Shown here one piece after another: positions 1,956-37,783 of a DNA stretch of 38,308 nucleotides. Position 1 is the first letter of the stretch; each line of letters begins with the position of its first letter. The position numbers and the translations under genes are program-made. Source of the DNA: a virus. The notes under the pieces were generated by a model. That model saw only the letters and a program-made list of their open reading frames with translations. It was not told where the DNA came from and did not search any database. The stretch is taken from positions 1 through 38,308 of the IMG/VR virus record IMGVR_UViG_3300025889_000336. One strand, given 5' to 3'.

Positions 1956-3353
1956 ATGAACCTAAGCATAAAGCCAAAATTAGAAATAGATTTCTCCGAT
2001 CTTGGCTCTAAAAAGCTAAATTCTTCTTTGCAGGCAGCGATTGAATTCTGGACTAGTAATCCAGATGTCATATACTGCAAAGATACTGATATCTTCTATC
2101 AATATAAATCTGGGCTTTACTCTCAAATTAATGAGAACGTCGAACTTATTAACATGATTACCAGATGCCAAAGCATTGAAGATATTCGGATGTTATCTAT
2201 CCAAAAGAAAAGAGAAATCATTCAAAATATGAAGGCGGAGAAATACTATAAGTTATCAGATTTCAACCAAGAGAACCTAATTAATTTTAAAAATTGTTTC
2301 ATCGACTTAAAAACACTTACACCAGTTGCTCATAGTCAAAAGTATATTTCAACAAGACAACTTCCATATATATATGATAAGGAAGCAAAAGCCCCGTTAT
2401 GGATGAATACAGTTCACGAGATTATGGAAGATGATCAGCAAAAGATTGATTTGTTACAGGAATTCTTCGGATACTGCTTAACTAGGGATACCATATACGA
2501 AAAAGCACTGTTTTTGTTAGGCGAAGGCATGAACGGTAAAAGTACAATCTTGGACGGGCTTAGGTATATGTTAGGCGAGGACAATGTATCAGCTTTGTCA
2601 TTGCGATATATAACCGATCCTAGGTATGTTGGGTTGATTATAAATAAATTCGCTAATGTGGTCAGTGAGATTCCCAAGAATGTTTCAGAGTACGAGGATG
2701 ATTTTAAAACCATTGTTTCCGGCGAGCCCGTAACGGTCAACAATAAATATGAAAAAAGTTATGACTATCGACCTCATTGTAAATTGATTTTCGCAGCAAA
2801 TAAAATGCCTAGAGTTGGCGAGACATCAACGGCAATTTATAGCCGGATGATTATCTTGTCATTAAATAGAGTTTTTGATCGTGATTCCCCAGAGACAGAT
2901 AAGCATAGAAAGATAAAACTACGGGAAGAAGCCTCTGGAATATTTAATTGGGCGGTTGAAGGATTGAAAAGATTGCAGGCTAGAAATCATTTTATCTTGT
3001 CGAAAGCGATGATTGCAGACTTAAACAAAGTTGAGTTAAGCAATAATATGGTTTTGCAATATTTTTATGAAAACATAGATATAACTGGAAATGATGACGA
3101 CCATATATTTAAAGACGATTTGTTTTATAAATATCGAAACTTTGTTATCTCGAACGGATCACGAGCTAATTTTACAAAATGGAATTTCGGAGAAGAAGTT
3201 GGGAAGATATTAAAAAATGTAAGCAATAAAAATTTTCGGATGAATGTACTTGAAAATGGACGTCGTGTTACAAAAAGAGCTTGGCAAGGGATAAAGTGGA
3301 AGGTACACGAACCCGAAGAATTAGAAATAAAGGCGGTCAATTGGGATGAATGA
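1956..3353 (+). CDS. D5-family SF3 replicative helicase
   Basis: A 465-residue phage/plasmid P4- and D5-like helicase. Residues about 100-150 match the D5_N pattern (ENLINFKNCFIDLKT, then RQLPYIYD). The SF3 ATPase core follows: Walker A GEGMNGKST at 189-197, Walker B-type VVSEIP near 235-240 with Glu238, sensor motif KLIFAANKMP at 276-285 and an arginine-finger region YSRMIIL near 295-301. Many relatives carry an N-terminal primase domain; this one is too short to have it, so priming must come from elsewhere. It probably unwinds DNA ahead of the replication fork. It follows a promoter at 1871 but has no clear ribosome site before its ATG. It overlaps the next gene by eight bases. Confidence 0.9.
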   Translation: MNLSIKPKLEIDFSDLGSKKLNSSLQAAIEFWTSNPDVIYCKDTDIFYQYKSGLYSQINENVELINMITRCQSIEDIRMLSIQKKREIIQNMKAEKYYKLSDFNQENLINFKNCFIDLKTLTPVAHSQKYISTRQLPYIYDKEAKAPLWMNTVHEIMEDDQQKIDLLQEFFGYCLTRDTIYEKALFLLGEGMNGKSTILDGLRYMLGEDNVSALSLRYITDPRYVGLIINKFANVVSEIPKNVSEYEDDFKTIVSGEPVTVNNKYEKSYDYRPHCKLIFAANKMPRVGETSTAIYSRMIILSLNRVFDRDSPETDKHRKIKLREEASGIFNWAVEGLKRLQARNHFILSKAMIADLNKVELSNNMVLQYFYENIDITGNDDDHIFKDDLFYKYRNFVISNGSRANFTKWNFGEEVGKILKNVSNKNFRMNVLENGRRVTKRAWQGIKWKVHEPEELEIKAVNWDE

Positions 3354-5474: not shown

Positions 5475-5942
5475 ATGGTAAAGAAAATATTTAATGGCGG
5501 TGCGGATGAACCAGATAAAAAAAGTTTTAAAAAACCATCAGCGAAAGAGCATTTATTCCAAGTTGTTGATGTATACACCAGCAAAGATAATCCCTTTAAG
5601 AATGGGTTGCCGGAAGATAAGGTTGCTGTGAAATGTGAAGTTGTCGGCGGTGAGGAAGAAGGTCGGACATTGTTACAAAGATTAAGCCTTGATGAAAATT
5701 CCAAAGGCTTTTTTGCGACAAAGATATTCCTTAAAGCAATTGGAGAACCGTATAAAGGAGAGAATATTGATTTAGACACTGACCGATGGGTTGGTAGACA
5801 ATTTTACGCAACAGTAATTCATGATGGCGATTATGCCAACATTGCTGATTATAACTTTGATAAGCTAATAGATCAGGAGAAAACATATAATAGTCAAAAA
5901 CATGGGATGATCAATGGTAAAGAAATCGCATGGGACGAATAG
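5475..5942 (+). CDS. DUF669-like protein, likely ssDNA-binding
   Basis: A 155-residue protein directly after the Sak4-like ATPase. It has the DUF669 pattern: a short N-terminus with FNGGADEPDK, then a predicted beta-rich core (HLFQVVDVYTS, KVAVKCEVVGG, EEGRTLLQRLSL), the KIFLKAIGEPYKG segment, and an acidic end (KEIAWDE). DUF669 proteins sit beside Sak4-type recombinases and are thought to act as single-strand binding partners; that role is inferred from this repeated pairing. Confidence 0.75.
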   Translation: MVKKIFNGGADEPDKKSFKKPSAKEHLFQVVDVYTSKDNPFKNGLPEDKVAVKCEVVGGEEEGRTLLQRLSLDENSKGFFATKIFLKAIGEPYKGENIDLDTDRWVGRQFYATVIHDGDYANIADYNFDKLIDQEKTYNSQKHGMINGKEIAWDE

Positions 5943-24513: not shown

Positions 24514-25206
24514 TTATAATAATATTCTTAAATCATCTGGTAATGGAAACAATTTTGTCTTAAATACTTCTCCATTTGGCATGATTACATCGTCACCGTA
24601 ATTCCATTTTTCATATCTATCGTTAAACCATTTCTCTCCATCAAAATCAGAAGCATGTGCATAAGTAGTAACCTTCTTTTTAATATCCTTAGGACTGCAC
24701 CATGATAAATGATGCATTTCTCCATCCCATCTAACATATGAGCTGTTTACATTTCTAATATAATGAAAATCTACATGCGGTCTTGCAGCTATAATTGGAT
24801 CAAATGATGCTGGCGGGTCTAATATATAATCAATAGTTTTCCAATATACTCTTGGCAATACCGTTACTGCATTATCATTTGTATTCTTTAAGAAATCTAA
24901 TAAGTAAATTATATTCTTATTATCTATTAGTTCGTCGCTATCTAAATATATTATCCAATCACAATCTTTTAATATTTTTTTTCCAGTATTGCGTTGATAA
25001 TGATCTAACTTCCAATATCCTTTTACAACATTTACATCTAAAGATAAACATATTTCTTCTGTATTATCAGGAGCCTCTGGAACGCCAAAATATGGTCTCT
25101 CAGATAGCATTACAACAATTTCATCAACAAATGGTTTAATACATTTTATAACTGCGCCAATTGTTTCTTCATCGTTATACGCTAATATTACAGATTTTAT
25201 TTTCAT
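24514..25206 (-). CDS. Glycosyltransferase, family GT2-like
   Basis: A 230-residue GT-A enzyme. The Rossmann-type start (KSVILAYNDEETIGAVI), then QRNTGKKI and WIIYLDSDEL with a D-x-D at 89-91, define GT2 enzymes that use a nucleotide-sugar donor and a divalent metal. It lacks membrane spans, so it would act on a soluble or virion acceptor. It is the last of four glycosyltransferase genes that lie between capsid and adaptor genes; it overlaps the upstream GT by four bases. Confidence 0.75.
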   Translation of the reverse strand: MKIKSVILAYNDEETIGAVIKCIKPFVDEIVVMLSERPYFGVPEAPDNTEEICLSLDVNVVKGYWKLDHYQRNTGKKILKDCDWIIYLDSDELIDNKNIIYLLDFLKNTNDNAVTVLPRVYWKTIDYILDPPASFDPIIAARPHVDFHYIRNVNSSYVRWDGEMHHLSWCSPKDIKKKVTTYAHASDFDGEKWFNDRYEKWNYGDDVIMPNGEVFKTKLFPLPDDLRILL

Positions 25207-26024
25207 AATATATTTTTAAATAATTGATTTGTAACTGTCTCCCATGTCCCAAAATCAACTTCTTCAATCTTAGGAGGATTATTTATAGCATTAATTAGTC
25301 TATCTTTATATTCAGATAATGAAACCTTTACGCCATATTTAACTGTTGTCTCTAAAGCCATATTTGGTACAACAACAGGAATACATTTTGCTACTTGTGC
25401 TTTTGCCGCAGAAATACAAAATAACTCTATCCCTTGCCCTGGATGAAGCCAAAACTCACTTGATTTATATAATTCAATCATTTCCTTCTCAGATATAGAC
25501 TTATTATATGTAGAGATAAGTTTTGCTCCTGTTTCACGTGAAACATCTTCCCAAATACTTTTAAGAAAATCCAGCCCTCTATCTGGAGAAGATGAATATA
25601 AGCACTGTTTCCTTGTTTTTATTGGATTCTTAAATTGTTCTGGATAAAGAGATAATGGAACAACTCTTGAACTCTGTCCAAAAATACTTTGATGATATAT
25701 TGATGTAACTATTCGTTCATCATAATCTATATACTCGTAATCTCTACTATTATACCAACATGACCAATGAATATTATACTTGCCTAACTTTGGCGATCTA
25801 CTATTACAAGATAATACAATGTCTTTAGCTGAGAATGCTGATCTAGGGAGATACAGTACCCCATCATACTCTCCGGCAACCCCATCATAATAAACAATCA
25901 CTTCTTCTTTAATATTCTTCGCTGTATTAACTACAAATTCAGGAGTTCCACCAACATAATTATAAGGTGACCATTCCCATCCTTTTGGCAACTCTTCTGT
26001 CCATATCTCTATTAATCTACTCAT
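25203..26024 (-). CDS. Glycosyltransferase, GT4-like
   Basis: A 273-residue GT-B type protein. The C-terminal half has YSSSPDRGLDFLKSIWED (about residues 142-159), then FWLHPGQGIELFCISAAKAQ and VAKCIPVVVP. These match the C-terminal domain of the 761-residue fusion protein (DRGL, E-x-x-CISA-x-KAQ, CIPV), so the two are related by duplication. The N-terminal donor region is short. Its substrate is unknown; its partners and place suggest a virion glycan. Confidence 0.7.
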   Translation of the reverse strand: MSRLIEIWTEELPKGWEWSPYNYVGGTPEFVVNTAKNIKEEVIVYYDGVAGEYDGVLYLPRSAFSAKDIVLSCNSRSPKLGKYNIHWSCWYNSRDYEYIDYDERIVTSIYHQSIFGQSSRVVPLSLYPEQFKNPIKTRKQCLYSSSPDRGLDFLKSIWEDVSRETGAKLISTYNKSISEKEMIELYKSSEFWLHPGQGIELFCISAAKAQVAKCIPVVVPNMALETTVKYGVKVSLSEYKDRLINAINNPPKIEEVDFGTWETVTNQLFKNIL

Positions 26025-26722
26025 ACACCACTAAATACCTGATATAAACTATTATCGTTATATTTTATATATTTATTTATAAAATACTCTCTACTTCTAT
26101 TAAATTCATTTATATCCCCACCAAATTCACCAATAGTAGTATGAGGGTTATGAACTGCATATCCATTAAGATTTTTATAAAACTTCTTACCTTCTATATG
26201 CAGTCTAAATGCTAAGTCTGTATCATCAAAGACAACTTTATATTCTGGATCAAACCAAGCATCCTCATTCTTCATCATACAAACAGAGAAGCAAAGAGAT
26301 TCAACAATCTCATTCTTTATTGAATCTTTATGCTCGCTGATTCCCAATGATGCTATCCCACAATCGTCTTTGCTAGAAAAACAATCTAACATATATTCTA
26401 ACCAATCTTCACATACAAAAACATCATTGGCAATAAATACAATAAATTCTCCATCACATACATTGAATGCTCTATTTATACTCCTATTTGGATTCTCTTT
26501 TATTTTCTCATACAAGTAAATATCAGCATATTCATTGAAATAGTTTGATTCTGTTTCTACTATAACTAGTTCATAATTGACAGAGGTTCTCTTCATTAAT
26601 TCAATGCATTTTAATGTCATAGGAATATGTTTTTTGTCTTTAATAAATACTGGCAAGACAACATTTATTTTATCTTTTATTATTCTCATATTCCTGTTTA
26701 TTGTTATAGGGTCTTTAATCAT
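26021..26722 (-). CDS. Glycosyltransferase, GT2-like
   Basis: The frame is open to 26743 but only the ATG at 26722 has a ribosome site (GGAG) and shares ATGA with the upstream stop, giving 233 residues. INVVLPVFIKDKKHIPMTL is the GT2 start. EFIVFIANDVFVCEDW carries the metal-site region with ND in place of a full D-x-D, and a later DDTDLAFRL matches the acceptor-side motif of GT2 enzymes. No membrane span. Part of the glycosyltransferase cassette. Confidence 0.65.
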   Translation of the reverse strand: MIKDPITINRNMRIIKDKINVVLPVFIKDKKHIPMTLKCIELMKRTSVNYELVIVETESNYFNEYADIYLYEKIKENPNRSINRAFNVCDGEFIVFIANDVFVCEDWLEYMLDCFSSKDDCGIASLGISEHKDSIKNEIVESLCFSVCMMKNEDAWFDPEYKVVFDDTDLAFRLHIEGKKFYKNLNGYAVHNPHTTIGEFGGDINEFNRSREYFINKYIKYNDNSLYQVFSGV

Positions 26723-29004
26723 GTAAATAACTCTCCTGTCCATTGATTAGCGACCCTATCCCAACCAAATTCCTCTTTATGACTAATGACTTTACTTCTT
26801 ATTTCTTCTTGCTTACTACTGTCTTTGAGGATTTCGATGATACTTTCTTTGAACTTTTCTTTGACGACATTGTTATCACACCTCCCTTCAATCTTTATGC
26901 CTTCTTTTACTGTCTCTTTTAATGCGGCATAATCAGTACATACTGGTATACACCCTGCCGCCTGTGCTTTCATTGCAGAGATACAAGAAATCTCTTCAAA
27001 ATGAGATGGATATGCCCAAATAGCTGACTTTTGTAATTCTTTTACTAACTGTCGATGCCCAACTCTACCATGTTCGTATATTCCTTCTTGATTCATTAAG
27101 GTTAACATCAATTGTTTAAACTCTTTTGGTCTACGACCAGAATCCATCATTTTATCATATGTATTCCAACCATAAAATATATGTAGTTCTGCTTCTGGGA
27201 CTTGTAACTTAATGTCTGGCCACATCTCAAGAATATTCTGTAATCCTCTATCATAACTTGATGTATAAATCATTCTGTATTGATTTCTATCTAATGCGTA
27301 ATCCTTAAAATCGTTCAGATTTATCCCATTTGAACTAACGAATATTTGATCTTCTCTAACATTATTAGGTAATAAACTCTTATGAAATTCAGATAATACA
27401 ATAACTTTATCAAACAAATTCCCCTTGTTTGAATCTAAATCAATAGGAACATCATGTAACCATAAGATATTCTTCTTAGATTTTATGTCGATATGTTGAA
27501 ATATATTTGCCCTCCAAGCTACGAAATAATTAAATTCATCACGAGGATTAAATTCAAGATATGACTTATATTCAACACCATTATATATACCTGAAAACTC
27601 ACCACATTGATTGTATACAGTTACATCCCAACCAATTTTTACTAACTCACGAGATAGATAAATAATTGCTTCTTCACTTCCACCAATGCCATTCATAACA
27701 GAGAAATCTGCCCAATCTTCCCAAGAATTCCCACAATAAAATACAATAGACTTCTCCGACCATTTCTTTGGTTTAGCAATCAAGTTTCTAAGCATTGCAA
27801 CTCTACTGCTATTCAAAGATTTCTTTGGAACAGCTTCTGCTAATATCTCTAACTTATTTGGTTCAACATTTTTAATATATTTACTAATCCAAGATAAGTT
27901 CTCAAAAAATGTTTTTTCCTCTAATGCTTCAATAAATAATGGATGATATTTTTTTATTAATGCATTATTAGGAGAAATCTTCCTTGCTTGTTCAAATAAC
28001 ATGCATGCTTTTTCAATATCGCCTTTTCCTAATAAAGCCATAGCCGCATTAGCTTTTGCTTTATATGAATAAAATGTTGGATCAATCACAATTACTGTGT
28101 CTGGTTCAGGTCGTGCAATGCCTGACATATACCAATCAACAGATTTATCATAATCTTGTTTCTCAAGATATATGTTCCCTAATTGTAGATATGCATCAGG
28201 AAATTTAGTGTTTATTGCGAGGGCTTCATTGCAACAAGCTATTGCAGTCTCTAAATCTCCTAGCTTTTGATAGCAATCTGACATCTGTATCCAAGCAAAA
28301 TATTTATCATCATTCCATCCAGAGCGTCTAATAAGATTAGTCAAAAACTTTATTGCTTCTCTATATTGCCCTTTTCCGGCTAACATCCGTCCTAAATATG
28401 CTATTGTTCTAGGATCAGTATTTTCTCCATCACGATTAAATTCTTCTAATAAATACTCTAAATTTCTAGCAAATGCTTTCTCAGCATGCCCTTTATCTGT
28501 TGAATGAATTATTTTTAACTGCGTATCTCTTGCTAATATGCAATTTTCTCTATTATCTAAATGAATATTCTCATGGATTGCTTTCTTCCAATAAATATCT
28601 TTTCTCTTTTTAATTATTGTCTCTCTCCAATGAGACACAATGCATTGACCATTCTCGTCGGTATAATATTCATATAAATGAAAAGTAACATCTATCCCTC
28701 TTGCAACAGTTTGTTTAAATAATTCAGGCAATATCTCAATATTCTCAATCAAGTCATCTGTATCGAGTCTAAGATAATAATCACTAGTTATTTTATCTGC
28801 CAGAAAATTTCTTTTATCTGAAAAATTTCTAATCCATTTGTATTCATGAATCTTTACTTTATCATTTGCTAATAACTTAAACTCATCAATTCGCTCATCA
28901 ACAGCTATTGCTATTTCATCAAAATATTTCTCATAAAGATTTATTAAATTCTTAACCTTCTCTACCTCATCTTTAGCAATAATGTGTAATGCCAGCGTTG
29001 CCAT
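26719..29004 (-). CDS. GT2-TPR-GT4 fusion glycosyltransferase
   Basis: A 761-residue three-part protein. Residues about 1-180 are GT2-like (LALHIIAKDEVEKVKNLINL, D-T-D at 81-83, then IHENIHLDN). About 195-345 are TPR helices (YREAIKFLTNLIRRSGW, DLETAIACCNEALAINTKFP, GDIEKACMLFEQARKISPN). About 415-755 are GT4-like (IVFYCGNSWEDWADFS, GGSEEAIIYLSREL, MIYTSSYDRGLQNILEMW, E-x-x-CISAMKAQAAGCIPV). GT2 and TPR parts also occur fused in bacterial protein glycosyltransferases. A single chain with two active sites could add two sugars in turn. It is the first GT gene after the capsid region. Confidence 0.75.
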   Translation of the reverse strand: MATLALHIIAKDEVEKVKNLINLYEKYFDEIAIAVDERIDEFKLLANDKVKIHEYKWIRNFSDKRNFLADKITSDYYLRLDTDDLIENIEILPELFKQTVARGIDVTFHLYEYYTDENGQCIVSHWRETIIKKRKDIYWKKAIHENIHLDNRENCILARDTQLKIIHSTDKGHAEKAFARNLEYLLEEFNRDGENTDPRTIAYLGRMLAGKGQYREAIKFLTNLIRRSGWNDDKYFAWIQMSDCYQKLGDLETAIACCNEALAINTKFPDAYLQLGNIYLEKQDYDKSVDWYMSGIARPEPDTVIVIDPTFYSYKAKANAAMALLGKGDIEKACMLFEQARKISPNNALIKKYHPLFIEALEEKTFFENLSWISKYIKNVEPNKLEILAEAVPKKSLNSSRVAMLRNLIAKPKKWSEKSIVFYCGNSWEDWADFSVMNGIGGSEEAIIYLSRELVKIGWDVTVYNQCGEFSGIYNGVEYKSYLEFNPRDEFNYFVAWRANIFQHIDIKSKKNILWLHDVPIDLDSNKGNLFDKVIVLSEFHKSLLPNNVREDQIFVSSNGINLNDFKDYALDRNQYRMIYTSSYDRGLQNILEMWPDIKLQVPEAELHIFYGWNTYDKMMDSGRRPKEFKQLMLTLMNQEGIYEHGRVGHRQLVKELQKSAIWAYPSHFEEISCISAMKAQAAGCIPVCTDYAALKETVKEGIKIEGRCDNNVVKEKFKESIIEILKDSSKQEEIRSKVISHKEEFGWDRVANQWTGELFT

Positions 29005-34371: not shown

Positions 34372-35823
34372 CTAATCATCCATCCCATAATTTGAACTCT
34401 TACCAGCCATAGTAGGTTCTCCATAAAAATCGTCAACTTTGCCCATATCAAAATAAACAGGTGTTATCAACTGCTCTGCATATGCTAATGTGTCAATAAG
34501 ATCGTCGTGTTCCTGGTCAATTATTGAATTTAATTGTAACAGTTCTTCACGTGCTTCAATATGATTCCCATGAATGAAATATTTACCTGCTTCAAATAAT
34601 GGTTGTAATGCCGCAATCGCTCTCGCCTTCTTATTCCTCTTTGCTTCCCCAGAAGCAGACATAAACGTATTCTTTAGCTCAACTACCGGTATATTAATAC
34701 CACGTTCTTGCGCTCTTTTCATTAAAGAATTAAAAAATTCTGCATCACCACCGCCTTTAGGTATCCCAAACGCTGTACATGTTCCTTTATAATTTACAAA
34801 TAAATTTAATGCCCCATCAATAAATTCACCTTGCGGACATCTTGTACGTAAATATGCTACTAAATACCGATTCATCTTTTCATCACTGCCTATAACACTG
34901 CACGTCTTAAAATCACTCTTAGGATCATCACTATAAGCAGGATCAATTGCTATAACAATATTCATCTGTCTTGGCAAATCTGTCCATTCACGAATCATAT
35001 TTTCTTTAATCGCAGCCGTAGCCTCGGAAATAGGTTTGTTACGATACTCACTCTGAAATGCATGTGTCCCAATAATCACTTTCCGACGCTGTAACTCTCT
35101 ATGCGGCAACATATCCGGCCATAATTCATGCCCTTCTTCTTCAATCCCATCAACATAACAATCATAATGCTTCTTTGTCCACCCATTCTCATGATCAATA
35201 ATATGCTTTAAATAACATAACGGACTTATCAACGTCCCAAAATATATTATCTGACCATTAGGCAATAATTTCGGTATCAATTCCTTATTTATCCGGTTCC
35301 TCAACTTCTCCCTCTGCTCTTCACTCTCTACACTCTCATTACTCTCCAAATCATCCAAACATATCAACCCCTTACGACCACCTCTCAACTGACCGCCAAT
35401 CCCACCAGCTTCAAACGAAATCCCGTTCTTTAAAACAAAATATGTCTCTGCCCACTTCTTCGTTATCATGTCCCCAAAACAATACTTCAACTTCTCGTTA
35501 TTCTCAAACTCACCTTTTATAACTCTCACAATTTCATTAATAATGTAACTCTCCGACGCTGATAACAAAGAAATATTCCCAGTCTTATTAAATAACGCAT
35601 AATGCATCGGATATATCACTAGACCAATCGTAGACTTTGCATGCCCACGTGGCGCCGCACACGCATAATACTTGCTCGTCTTTAAATCTTCATACACCTC
35701 CCTATGAAAATTCGCTACCCCCTTACTTAATATATGTGGGAAAAAAAATCTGCCGAAATACTCAACACTATCTCGACAGAGTTTATACACTTCACGCATG
35801 TTTTCTAACTTGCCCTTATCCAA
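34372..35823 (-). CDS. terL: Terminase large subunit
   Basis: Numbered from the open GTG at 35829: Walker A APRGHAKST at 59-67, Walker B LICLDD at 155-160, coupling-type YFGTL at 196-200, and the RNase H-like nuclease with AIDPAYSDD (Asp296) and HDDLIDTLAYA (Asp442, Asp443). It pumps DNA into the head and cuts it. AAGGAG lies seven bases before a TTG at 35823, which I prefer; the GTG is one base away from the ribosome site and an ATG at 35799 lacks one. It overlaps terS by eight bases. Confidence 0.9.
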   Translation of the reverse strand: MDKGKLENMREVYKLCRDSVEYFGRFFFPHILSKGVANFHREVYEDLKTSKYYACAAPRGHAKSTIGLVIYPMHYALFNKTGNISLLSASESYIINEIVRVIKGEFENNEKLKYCFGDMITKKWAETYFVLKNGISFEAGGIGGQLRGGRKGLICLDDLESNESVESEEQREKLRNRINKELIPKLLPNGQIIYFGTLISPLCYLKHIIDHENGWTKKHYDCYVDGIEEEGHELWPDMLPHRELQRRKVIIGTHAFQSEYRNKPISEATAAIKENMIREWTDLPRQMNIVIAIDPAYSDDPKSDFKTCSVIGSDEKMNRYLVAYLRTRCPQGEFIDGALNLFVNYKGTCTAFGIPKGGGDAEFFNSLMKRAQERGINIPVVELKNTFMSASGEAKRNKKARAIAALQPLFEAGKYFIHGNHIEAREELLQLNSIIDQEHDDLIDTLAYAEQLITPVYFDMGKVDDFYGEPTMAGKSSNYGMDD

Positions 35824-36265
35824 TACCACGCTCCTTCAACTTCTTCTCACTACGCTTAACTACTTCCTTCAATAACTTCTTCCCACCACCACTCTCAACA
35901 ACAATATCAGCCTTCTCGATCTTCTCGATATTCTCCATCTTAACATCTTCATTCATAAATAAATTAAATATCGGCTCATTAAACGTAACTACCTTACTAT
36001 CATTCCACCCATGAAACGTACCTAACAACTTTAACGCTACATCAGCCTTTAAACTCCCACCTAACGCACCCTTAGCTACCTTTACCTCCTCGATATTCTT
36101 AGCAATATCTAACTTCTCCCTAAACCACTCGTCCTCACTCGCTAACTTATATAAACTCTTCCTACTCATCCCCTCAGTAACTGCAAACTCACTCAATAAA
36201 AAGTTCCCAGGTACCGACATCCAATCTATCATCCTAAAAGCTAATGCTCTTAAATCTATTGTCAT
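35816..36265 (-). CDS. terS: Terminase small subunit
   Basis: A 149-residue protein immediately upstream of terL. The N-terminus reads as a helix-turn-helix (FLLSEFAVTEGMSRKSLYKL, about residues 22-41) and the middle is helical (EVKVAKGALGGSLKADVALK), fitting the DNA-recognition and oligomer parts of small terminases. The end is very lysine-rich. There is no ribosome site, but a promoter lies so close that the ATG could be the first base of the mRNA. It begins the structural operon. Confidence 0.75.
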   Translation of the reverse strand: MTIDLRALAFRMIDWMSVPGNFLLSEFAVTEGMSRKSLYKLASEDEWFREKLDIAKNIEEVKVAKGALGGSLKADVALKLLGTFHGWNDSKVVTFNEPIFNLFMNEDVKMENIEKIEKADIVVESGGGKKLLKEVVKRSEKKLKERGIG

Positions 36266-36271
36266 AATATA

Positions 36272-36300
36272 TTTATATTAAAATAAATAACACTTGTCAA
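36272..36300 (-). promoter_or_regulatory. Leftward sigma70-like promoter for terminase operon
   Basis: On the minus strand, TTGACA (36295-36300), 17 bases, then TATAAA (36272-36277), a near-consensus promoter. The expected start is near 36265, which is the ATG of terS. On the plus strand the spacer contains AATAAC (36286-36291), the half-site seen at the other promoters. Confidence 0.65.
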
Positions 36301-36420
36301 CAAATATTTGATAAAAAATCAATAAATTGAAAATTACTCGGCGATTTTGTGAGGGATTGTATAATTATAATAATACCCTCATGGGGGGTGCCTGCCGTCC
36401 ATACGTGCGGATGAAATGAC

Positions 36421-36476
36421 ATATATATAATATATATAATATATATAATAATTAATATAATAATAAATAAATATTA
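36421..36476. other. 56 bp with no G or C
   Basis: Pure A/T DNA with repeating ATATATATA units, the kind of stretch that melts easily. It lies between the leftward promoter and the cluster of GTGAC sites, which is the order seen in many iteron-type origins. Confidence 0.5.
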
Positions 36477-36500
36477 CTACTTACAGTAGGTACGGGTGAA

Positions 36501-36522
36501 TGCCCCTAGATTGCCCCTAGAT
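36501..36522. repeat. 11-bp tandem repeat
   Basis: TGCCCCTAGAT occurs twice in tandem (36501-36511, 36512-36522), followed by TGCG. CCCCTAG appears a third time at 37014-37020. These are GC-rich islands in very AT-rich DNA. Confidence 0.7.
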
Positions 36523-36620
36523 TGCGTTAGGATGACCTATAATTAACGATAATGCCACTACCTATATATATGCCTAACCTACGATAATGCGATAATACCA
36601 CAAAATAGCAGACGGTTACC

Positions 36621-36875
36621 TTGTGACAATGGTTGCAAAAAGTGACATTAATACGTCACGCTCTAAACTACTGCAATTGCATAACTTATGATTTTTTATG
36701 TACGCTTGTGACATACTATTGTTATATATTGTTAGTTATATATATATATAAAATATGTTGTGGTACCCCTTGTCACATGTCACACCATTGCAAAATATAG
36801 AGTTACAACACGCCAAAACGTCACAAAAAAAGCACCTTAGCACTCTCATATATACACTGCTAACAAATTGTGACA
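36621..36875. repeat. Cluster of eight GTGAC/GTCAC sites (iteron-like)
   Basis: GTGAC or its complement GTCAC starts at 36623, 36642, 36655, 36708, 36772, 36779, 36820 and 36870. Most read TTGTGACA or TGTCACA. With this base composition well under one would be expected by chance in 252 bp. Some are followed by TTGCAAAA. They look like binding sites for a replication initiator or regulator. Confidence 0.6.
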
Positions 36876-36963
36876 TAGTCATTTTTTTTATTTGCCACTA
36901 TTTTATTTTTACAGCGTCGAGGATTATTTTAAAAACACAAGTACAGCGACGAGAAAAAAATAG

Positions 36964-36991
36964 TTGACAGTCATTGATAACATGATATTAT
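36964..36991 (+). promoter_or_regulatory. Rightward sigma70-like promoter
   Basis: TTGACA (36964-36969), 16 bases and TATTAT (36986-36991), the same -10 and spacing as at 1871. ACAGTCATT (36967-36975) is shared with the operator at 4442-4450. A short hairpin TCCCCT/AGGGGA (37013-37018 with 37033-37038) lies in the leader. It drives the genes from 37058. Confidence 0.6.
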
Positions 36992-37057
36992 TGCATCATA
37001 CAAACAACCAATTCCCCTAGGCGCAATCGTTGAGGGGATAAAAACGGGGGGGATGAA

Positions 37058-37783
37058 ATGAAAAAATTATCACCAAGCGAAATGCGTAAATGGGCGTACG
37101 ACATGGAAACATATTACGGTAATCATAGTAATATGCGTTATGTGATGCTAGTTAAGGCACATGCCGATAAGTTGCGTGCGGAGGCTGATATTATTGATGG
37201 ATGCAGTGGCAAGATTGCAGATGTTGCGGAAATGCACTATAACTATCCATTAATCGGCAAGGTAGTTATAAGAGGAGGCAAGATGGTTGCTCTCGAGCGT
37301 CCTTATAATTGTGAGGGCGAGGCGCACGGAATCTATACGGCTTGGGAATGGCGCAACGACCCGACGGCGGAAATTTGCGCAGGGCAATTATGCAGGTTAT
37401 ATATTGGCACCATTGATGATGGTCCACTAGCCATGTATGATGCGGATAGTCAGCAATGGTACAAGTTGGCGTCCAAAGGCAACTATGGCAAAAACTATGC
37501 GTGCGGAGGCACGTGGGCATCGACAAAAGCTGTTCAAATCCCGGAAATCGTAACAAAATTGGAGGATATTATGTACAAATTGGCACAAGCGAAAAAAAGA
37601 TTAGAGGCGTCAAAATTACGAGTATTGGCAGCGCATCAAATGGATAATGCAATAGCTTATGAGCGGCAATCGTATAATCCGGCTTATGAGGGACAATCGG
37701 AGATTTGCGCAGGCAAAGCGGAAATTATGCGTGCCTATGCTAAACGTACATTGGCACAAGCCGACCTTGTAGAGATGGTATAA
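37058..37783 (+). CDS. Hypothetical protein, likely early
   Basis: A 241-residue soluble protein with strong GGGGGG ribosome site and its own promoter. The first part is helical (SPSEMRKWAYDMETYYG, LRAEADIIDGC), the middle is rich in G, W and Y (EAHGIYTAWEWRNDP, GNYGKNYACGGTW), and the end is a long charged helix (KLAQAKKRLEASKLRVL). I do not recognise a family. Its position, first after the control region and divergent from the structural operon, suggests early expression; that is inference only. Confidence 0.65.
   Translation: MKKLSPSEMRKWAYDMETYYGNHSNMRYVMLVKAHADKLRAEADIIDGCSGKIADVAEMHYNYPLIGKVVIRGGKMVALERPYNCEGEAHGIYTAWEWRNDPTAEICAGQLCRLYIGTIDDGPLAMYDADSQQWYKLASKGNYGKNYACGGTWASTKAVQIPEIVTKLEDIMYKLAQAKKRLEASKLRVLAAHQMDNAIAYERQSYNPAYEGQSEICAGKAEIMRAYAKRTLAQADLVEMV

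Follow-up and report, generated by a model that had tools for sequence, protein, structure and literature searches.

The window, by which we mean the whole stretch of DNA analysed here (38,308 bp, IMG/VR record IMGVR_UViG_3300025889_000336, of the record class linear), belongs to a tailed phage, and between its early and late genes lies an array of short GTGAC words around an AT-rich tract which is probably its replication origin. We estimate a probability of about 75% that this region is an origin of a SaPI/PICI-like type, at which the C-terminal domain of a D5-type helicase would bind GTGAC, the tract would melt and replication would proceed outward. The gene order is that of podovirus ctKR88 (MW202524, circular, 42,585 bp): the late genes run leftward from the small terminase subunit gene terS (36265) down to about 8.8 kb, and the early genes, read rightward, occupy the stretch from 37058 onward and positions 1 to about 8.8 kb. 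An open frame continues across the join between the end and the start of the window (MKANPKGKMTMKPQTKQ...), and the contig may thus represent a complete circular map with a putative closure. The early and late genes diverge at a 792-bp intergenic gap (36266-37057), and the following features are relevant for the interpretation of this region.

34372-35829, minus strand: terminase large subunit (phrog_38, 3e-78)
35816-36265, minus strand: probable terminase small subunit and start of the late operon, assigned by position only (overlaps the start of the large subunit gene)
36421-36476, unstranded: A/T-only block of 56 bp, the longest in the window (next longest 29 bp)
36623-36712, unstranded: left iteron set, exact GTGAC at 36623-36627 (+), 36642-36646 (+), 36655-36659 (-) and 36708-36712 (+)
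about 36710-36759, unstranded: AT-rich tract between the site sets, probable DNA-unwinding element, from AT content and instability
36772-36874, unstranded: right iteron set, exact GTGAC at 36772-36776 (-), 36779-36783 (-), 36820-36824 (-) and 36870-36874 (+)
36964-36991, plus strand: probable early promoter, TTGACA-16-TATTAT, the -10 being preceded by TG (consensus match only, at 11 of 12 positions)
37058-37783, plus strand: first early gene, earlier proposed as binder, no family match
1956-3353, plus strand: D5-type SF3 helicase of 465 aa without fused primase, candidate initiator (PF19263 3e-17, D5_N 2e-11, phrog_864)

The terS candidate at 35816-36265 itself matches nothing in Pfam or PHROG, and an Rfam scan and a tRNA scan were both empty. 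Elsewhere in the late operon, several large open reading frames at 24514-29004 look glycosyltransferase-like by eye, and ctKR88 carries annotated glycosyltransferase-like genes at the matching place.

On both strands of the 38,308 bp of the window GTGAC occurs 24 times, and eight of these copies fall within 36623-36874, which is the single GTGAC cluster in the whole 38.3 kb; the density in the rest of the window predicts 0.11 copies for this interval. Six of the seven copies of TGTGAC in the window are also located inside the array. The initial annotation had described eight TTGTGACA-type sites in 252 bp, and this count holds for GTGAC, but the full TTGTGACA is present in only three copies, so that the label was a loose one. 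When the 792-bp intergenic region was dinucleotide-shuffled 1000 times, a cluster of eight copies of any 5-mer in 260 bp arose once, and in shuffles of the whole window (n = 60) the best 5-mer with at least three G/C reached six copies. The pure A/T block likewise exceeds chance expectation, as A/T runs in the 1000 shuffled intergenic sequences reached at most 41 bp, compared to the 56 bp observed. The GTGAC sites are spaced at 19, 13, 53, 64, 7, 41 and 50 bp without helical phasing and occur in both orientations; three of four point one way in the left set and three of four the other way in the right set, an arrangement which is non-significant for this array alone. The likeness to iteron origins noted at the outset is well supported with respect to the origin-like character of the region, but unphased sites of mixed orientation are unlike classic direct-repeat iterons. 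A second set of short repeats, (G/C)AATGCCCCTA/GATTGCCCCTA and CGATAATGCCAC/CGATAATGCGAT/CGATAATACCAC, is visible between the A/T block and the array (36498-36601).

The array had been placed between divergent promoters and beside terS. It is indeed located between the leftward terS (36265) and the rightward gene at 37058, but only the rightward promoter is convincing, in a window where promoter matches overall are at chance level (nine found, 10.5 expected). The GC skew had been suggested as a check, and the minimum of the raw cumulative skew lies at 37017, about 150 bp or less from the array, which agrees with an origin there, though skew in this genome is inseparable from gene direction. 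Two further candidates for the nature of the words were rejected. The spacing of CRP-like sites (TGTGA-N6-TCACA) is mismatched with the positions of the GTGAC sites. GTGACA words recur in the ends of Mu/Tn7-like transposons, and these are ruled out by the presence of two opposed sets inside a phage genome and the lack of a transposase among the scanned proteins.

Genome-wide nearest-neighbour stability in non-overlapping 50-bp segments ranks the 56-bp A/T block as the least stable DNA and the tract within the array (36710) as third; the 40 bp at 36717-36756 are 93% AT, more than any other part of the array. The tract within the array belongs to the top 0.13% of instability in each of the eight standalone-D5 arrays tested, including that of the window. 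Judged from these properties, the tract at 36710-36759 is the probable DNA-unwinding element. The A/T block, which had been regarded as part of the origin, fares less well: the tract within the array is conserved in position, but the block is not, its counterpart being missing in relatives or, as for the 32-bp A/T run of phage G015, located on the opposite side of the array. It is an unproven candidate for a secondary unwinding site or a promoter-upstream element.

According to the initial annotation no known initiator gene was visible, and the product of the gene at 37058 was suggested as the binder; both statements had to be abandoned. The protein encoded at 1956-3353 is a D5/SF3 helicase with D5_N and DUF5906 domains, whose best solved relative, by sequence and by fold search, is the self-loading primase-helicase of SaPI5 (7ola). 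No primase domain is found among the Pfam and PHROG matches of this 465-aa protein, which starts near D5_N. Its AlphaFold model has a mean pLDDT of 69.7; for residues about 383-448 most block means are 81 to 89 (one block 65), and the order of secondary structure elements, strand-helix-helix-strand-strand, is that of a winged helix. The C-terminus (about 383-448) is thus modelled as a winged-helix-like region; the ortholog in G015 has a Pox_D5 C-terminal domain. The helicase ends in ...AVNWDE and a neighbouring small early protein (5475-5942) in ...KEIAWDE, and the tip Trp of D5 is invariant in ten D5 relatives; the two endings represent a possible shared C-terminal docking peptide.

The 37058 protein, in turn, belongs to no Pfam or PHROG family, and its relatives are confined to four viral contigs, with no other array phage among them; it was dropped as iteron binder for these reasons. 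Neither this protein nor the 37811 product was found in the array relatives compared, and among the loci compared the latter was present only in L002. This contig differs from the window by one mismatch up to 37828 and shows no difference within the array; L024 is likewise identical, but its sequence does not include the region, so that neither of these close relatives tests the GTGAC sites. The identity of L002 drops sharply within gene 37811 and the sequences are unrelated after 38081, which marks an abrupt mosaic boundary where the early operon begins; the next L002 open reading frame past 38081 looks clamp-like by eye.

No GTGAC clusters were found in distant terminase relatives, and no moderately diverged relative with this word was found. 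This is because the word changes: a search for any clustered word shows that many terminase relatives have, upstream of terS, a cluster built from a different word. It had been asked whether relatives keep the sites, and what they keep is the two-set architecture, but with a differing word. A scan for D5 helicases yielded 66 loci, and the comparison included nine other standalone-D5 phages and 58 further D5 loci. Later word scans used a laxer noncoding mask, as a spurious 70-aa open reading frame (36755-36967) otherwise masks the array of the window, and strong word clusters in coding regions or at contig ends (e.g. the ends of G006, G007 and G038) were left out of the counts. Eight of the nine other standalone-D5 phages have arrays of a different word, spanning 164-288 bp and located 1.6-3.8 kb upstream of D5, in genomes that are partly non-independent and with words picked after inspection of the sequences; the array of the window lies 3.39 kb upstream of its D5, if the contig closes. 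The words are GGACA(T) in G015, TGACTAC in G034, GCGTGG in G036, TGTCY in G037, ACACGCC in G038, GCGTATAAT in G039, AGCTGTA in G040 and TGGACA in G041. The arrays of G037 and G038 were spotted by eye, the automatic scan having missed both; that of G034 is weak, with only four sites, all in the same orientation, and G042 has no clear array.

Sets of largely opposed orientation around an AT tract are found in seven of the eight other standalone-D5 phages with arrays. Across 18 arrays, some of them from close relatives, 158 site pairs on either side of the AT centre are opposite and 82 point the same way, an excess reached in none of 20,000 permutations. The 58 further D5 loci come from bacterial genomes (Desulfoluna, for instance) and from viral contigs. 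Significant clusters of a word in noncoding DNA were detected in 34 of them, and in 27 of these 34 the array begins within 1 kb past the 3' end of D5, an end that is approximate for several loci; no cluster adjoins D5 in the window. In the arrays of G015, G030, G036, G037 and G038, whose iteron words differ, copies of CTACAATG adjoin an iteron at the border of the AT tract, and TATAAGGG recurs in four arrays; from their recurrence, CTACAATG/TATAAGGG is a possible second conserved origin element. In ctKR88, six copies of AGTACCA and a long inverted repeat at 35127-35344 directly follow the 3' end of the annotated repA gene; this is a likely origin that would use another initiator.

Which protein reads the words is indicated by the D5 C-terminal domains. 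Where the cores are 80-95% identical, mean C-terminal identity is 85.3% for pairs with the same word (n = 10) and only 54.4% for pairs with different words (n = 7), the pairs compared not being independent; at a core identity of 60-70% this difference vanishes (36.6 vs 42.2). In L167 and L259 the cores are 97% identical, the C-terminal domains 48%, and the words differ; G015 and G038 likewise combine 89% core identity with 43-44% C-terminal identity and different words, and L170 and L185, with 88% and 83%, have their word in common. The domain of the window D5 shares no more than 17-32% identity with its counterparts in the relatives. As the C-terminal domain tracks the word among the relatives compared above, D5 is indicated as the probable binder. 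For the D5-family helicase Cch2 of SCCmec, binding of AAGTG iterons via the C-terminal domain has been described, and origin recognition by SaPI Rep also resides in its C-terminal domain (PMC7581432).

It is unlikely that the GTGAC sites are instead operators of a phage or host transcription regulator controlling divergent early and late promoters, with the AT tracts as promoter elements. Mixed orientation and irregular spacing would suit regulator clusters, the array is located between divergent operons, with a good early promoter some 90 bp downstream, and the regulator could be among the largely unidentified early genes. However, no site lies on this promoter, as the last one ends at 36874 and the -35 element starts at 36964, no regulator family was found among the proteins scanned, which include part of the early open reading frames, and two sets around the least stable DNA would not be expected of operators. 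In addition, arrays follow D5 even where there is no divergent junction, as at the loci with an array less than 1 kb downstream, and the word tracks the D5 C-terminal domain. Even less probable is a genuine origin bound by the 37058, the 37811 or some other unidentified early protein, with D5 recruited secondarily. The two named genes are the first of the early operon and adjoin the array, and arrays also occur where no D5 was found (ctKR88, G009, G025, G026, G028 and G030, mostly fragments), so that other initiators can use them; yet D5 is favoured by the narrow distribution of both proteins and by the way in which its C-terminal domain follows the word. The least probable reading, in favour of which are the roughly 360 bp that separate the array from the start of terS and the arrays upstream of terS in many relatives, is that of TerS binding sites at which packaging starts (pac/cos), given that the ctKR88 array is about 2.6 kb from terS, that arrays follow D5 in the wider D5 loci including integrated elements, and that the C-terminal link is with D5.

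The SaPI/PICI-like origin that we favour can be set against several known systems. In iteron theta plasmids (RepA/Rep_3), the direct repeats are usually helically phased and some 20 bp long, and they are accompanied by DnaA boxes and an initiator of the Rep_3 type. The repeats of the window similarly adjoin an AT-rich, putatively unwinding tract, but its words have 5-8 bp and are unphased and in both orientations, and no Rep_3-type initiator was seen; the region also contains no DnaA box (TTATNCACA) and in this respect does not resemble a bacterial oriC. In satellite phage P4, the initiator alpha is a D5/P4-type helicase with a fused primase that acts on short repeats at an AT-rich origin (ori/crr) and needs two separate repeat loci. 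The window has the helicase type, the short repeats and an AT-rich putative origin in common with P4, but only one array and no fused primase.

PICI origins consist of two iteron sets flanking an AT-rich region (PMC6092414), and this layout is seen in the four plus four GTGAC sites around the AT tract of the window. Further similarities to SaPI/PICI are the D5/DUF5906 helicase, putatively self-loading, whose best match is SaPI5 7ola, and a word that differs between relatives. In contrast to SaPI/PICI, the putative origin is found where the early operon begins and does not directly follow the helicase gene, the helicase lacks the fused primase of the SaPI5 type, and the element is a complete tailed phage and not a satellite. 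Most of the wider D5 relatives have their array in the classical SaPI position directly 3' of D5, but the window's own group does not. As this position is one of the features that define the type, we regard the probable origin of the window as a variant of the SaPI/PICI type and not as a member of it. Cch2 also belongs to the D5 family, and the 5-bp iterons recognised by its C-terminal domain are direct AAGTG repeats in noncoding DNA, a putative origin (PMC7581432); however, there three iterons are located directly 3' of the gene, whereas in the window there are eight, grouped in two opposed sets and distant from the helicase gene.

By analogy with SaPI Rep and Cch2, we infer that the phage D5/SF3 helicase would bind the GTGAC iterons through its C-terminal winged-helix-like domain, and that a hexamer would form on either site set, the two sets facing opposite ways. 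The intervening AT tract (36710-36759) would then melt, the helicases would load, and replication would proceed outward both ways, starting from the point where the early and late operons diverge and not directly 3' of the helicase gene. Origin word and helicase C-terminal domain of D5 phages might further constitute a swappable specificity pair, in which domain and word change together on near-identical cores (up to 97%), co-infecting phages sort into origin-compatibility groups, and the code is readable from natural pairs; we consider this a tentative proposal with slightly less than an even chance of being correct. The origin described here would extend the SaPI/PICI origin type to environmental tailed phages, in which the word changes from phage to phage. 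It would also provide dozens of natural helicase-word pairs for the study of DNA recognition by D5-family helicases, the relatives of poxvirus D5/E5, and a practical rule for locating origins in the genomes of uncultured phages.
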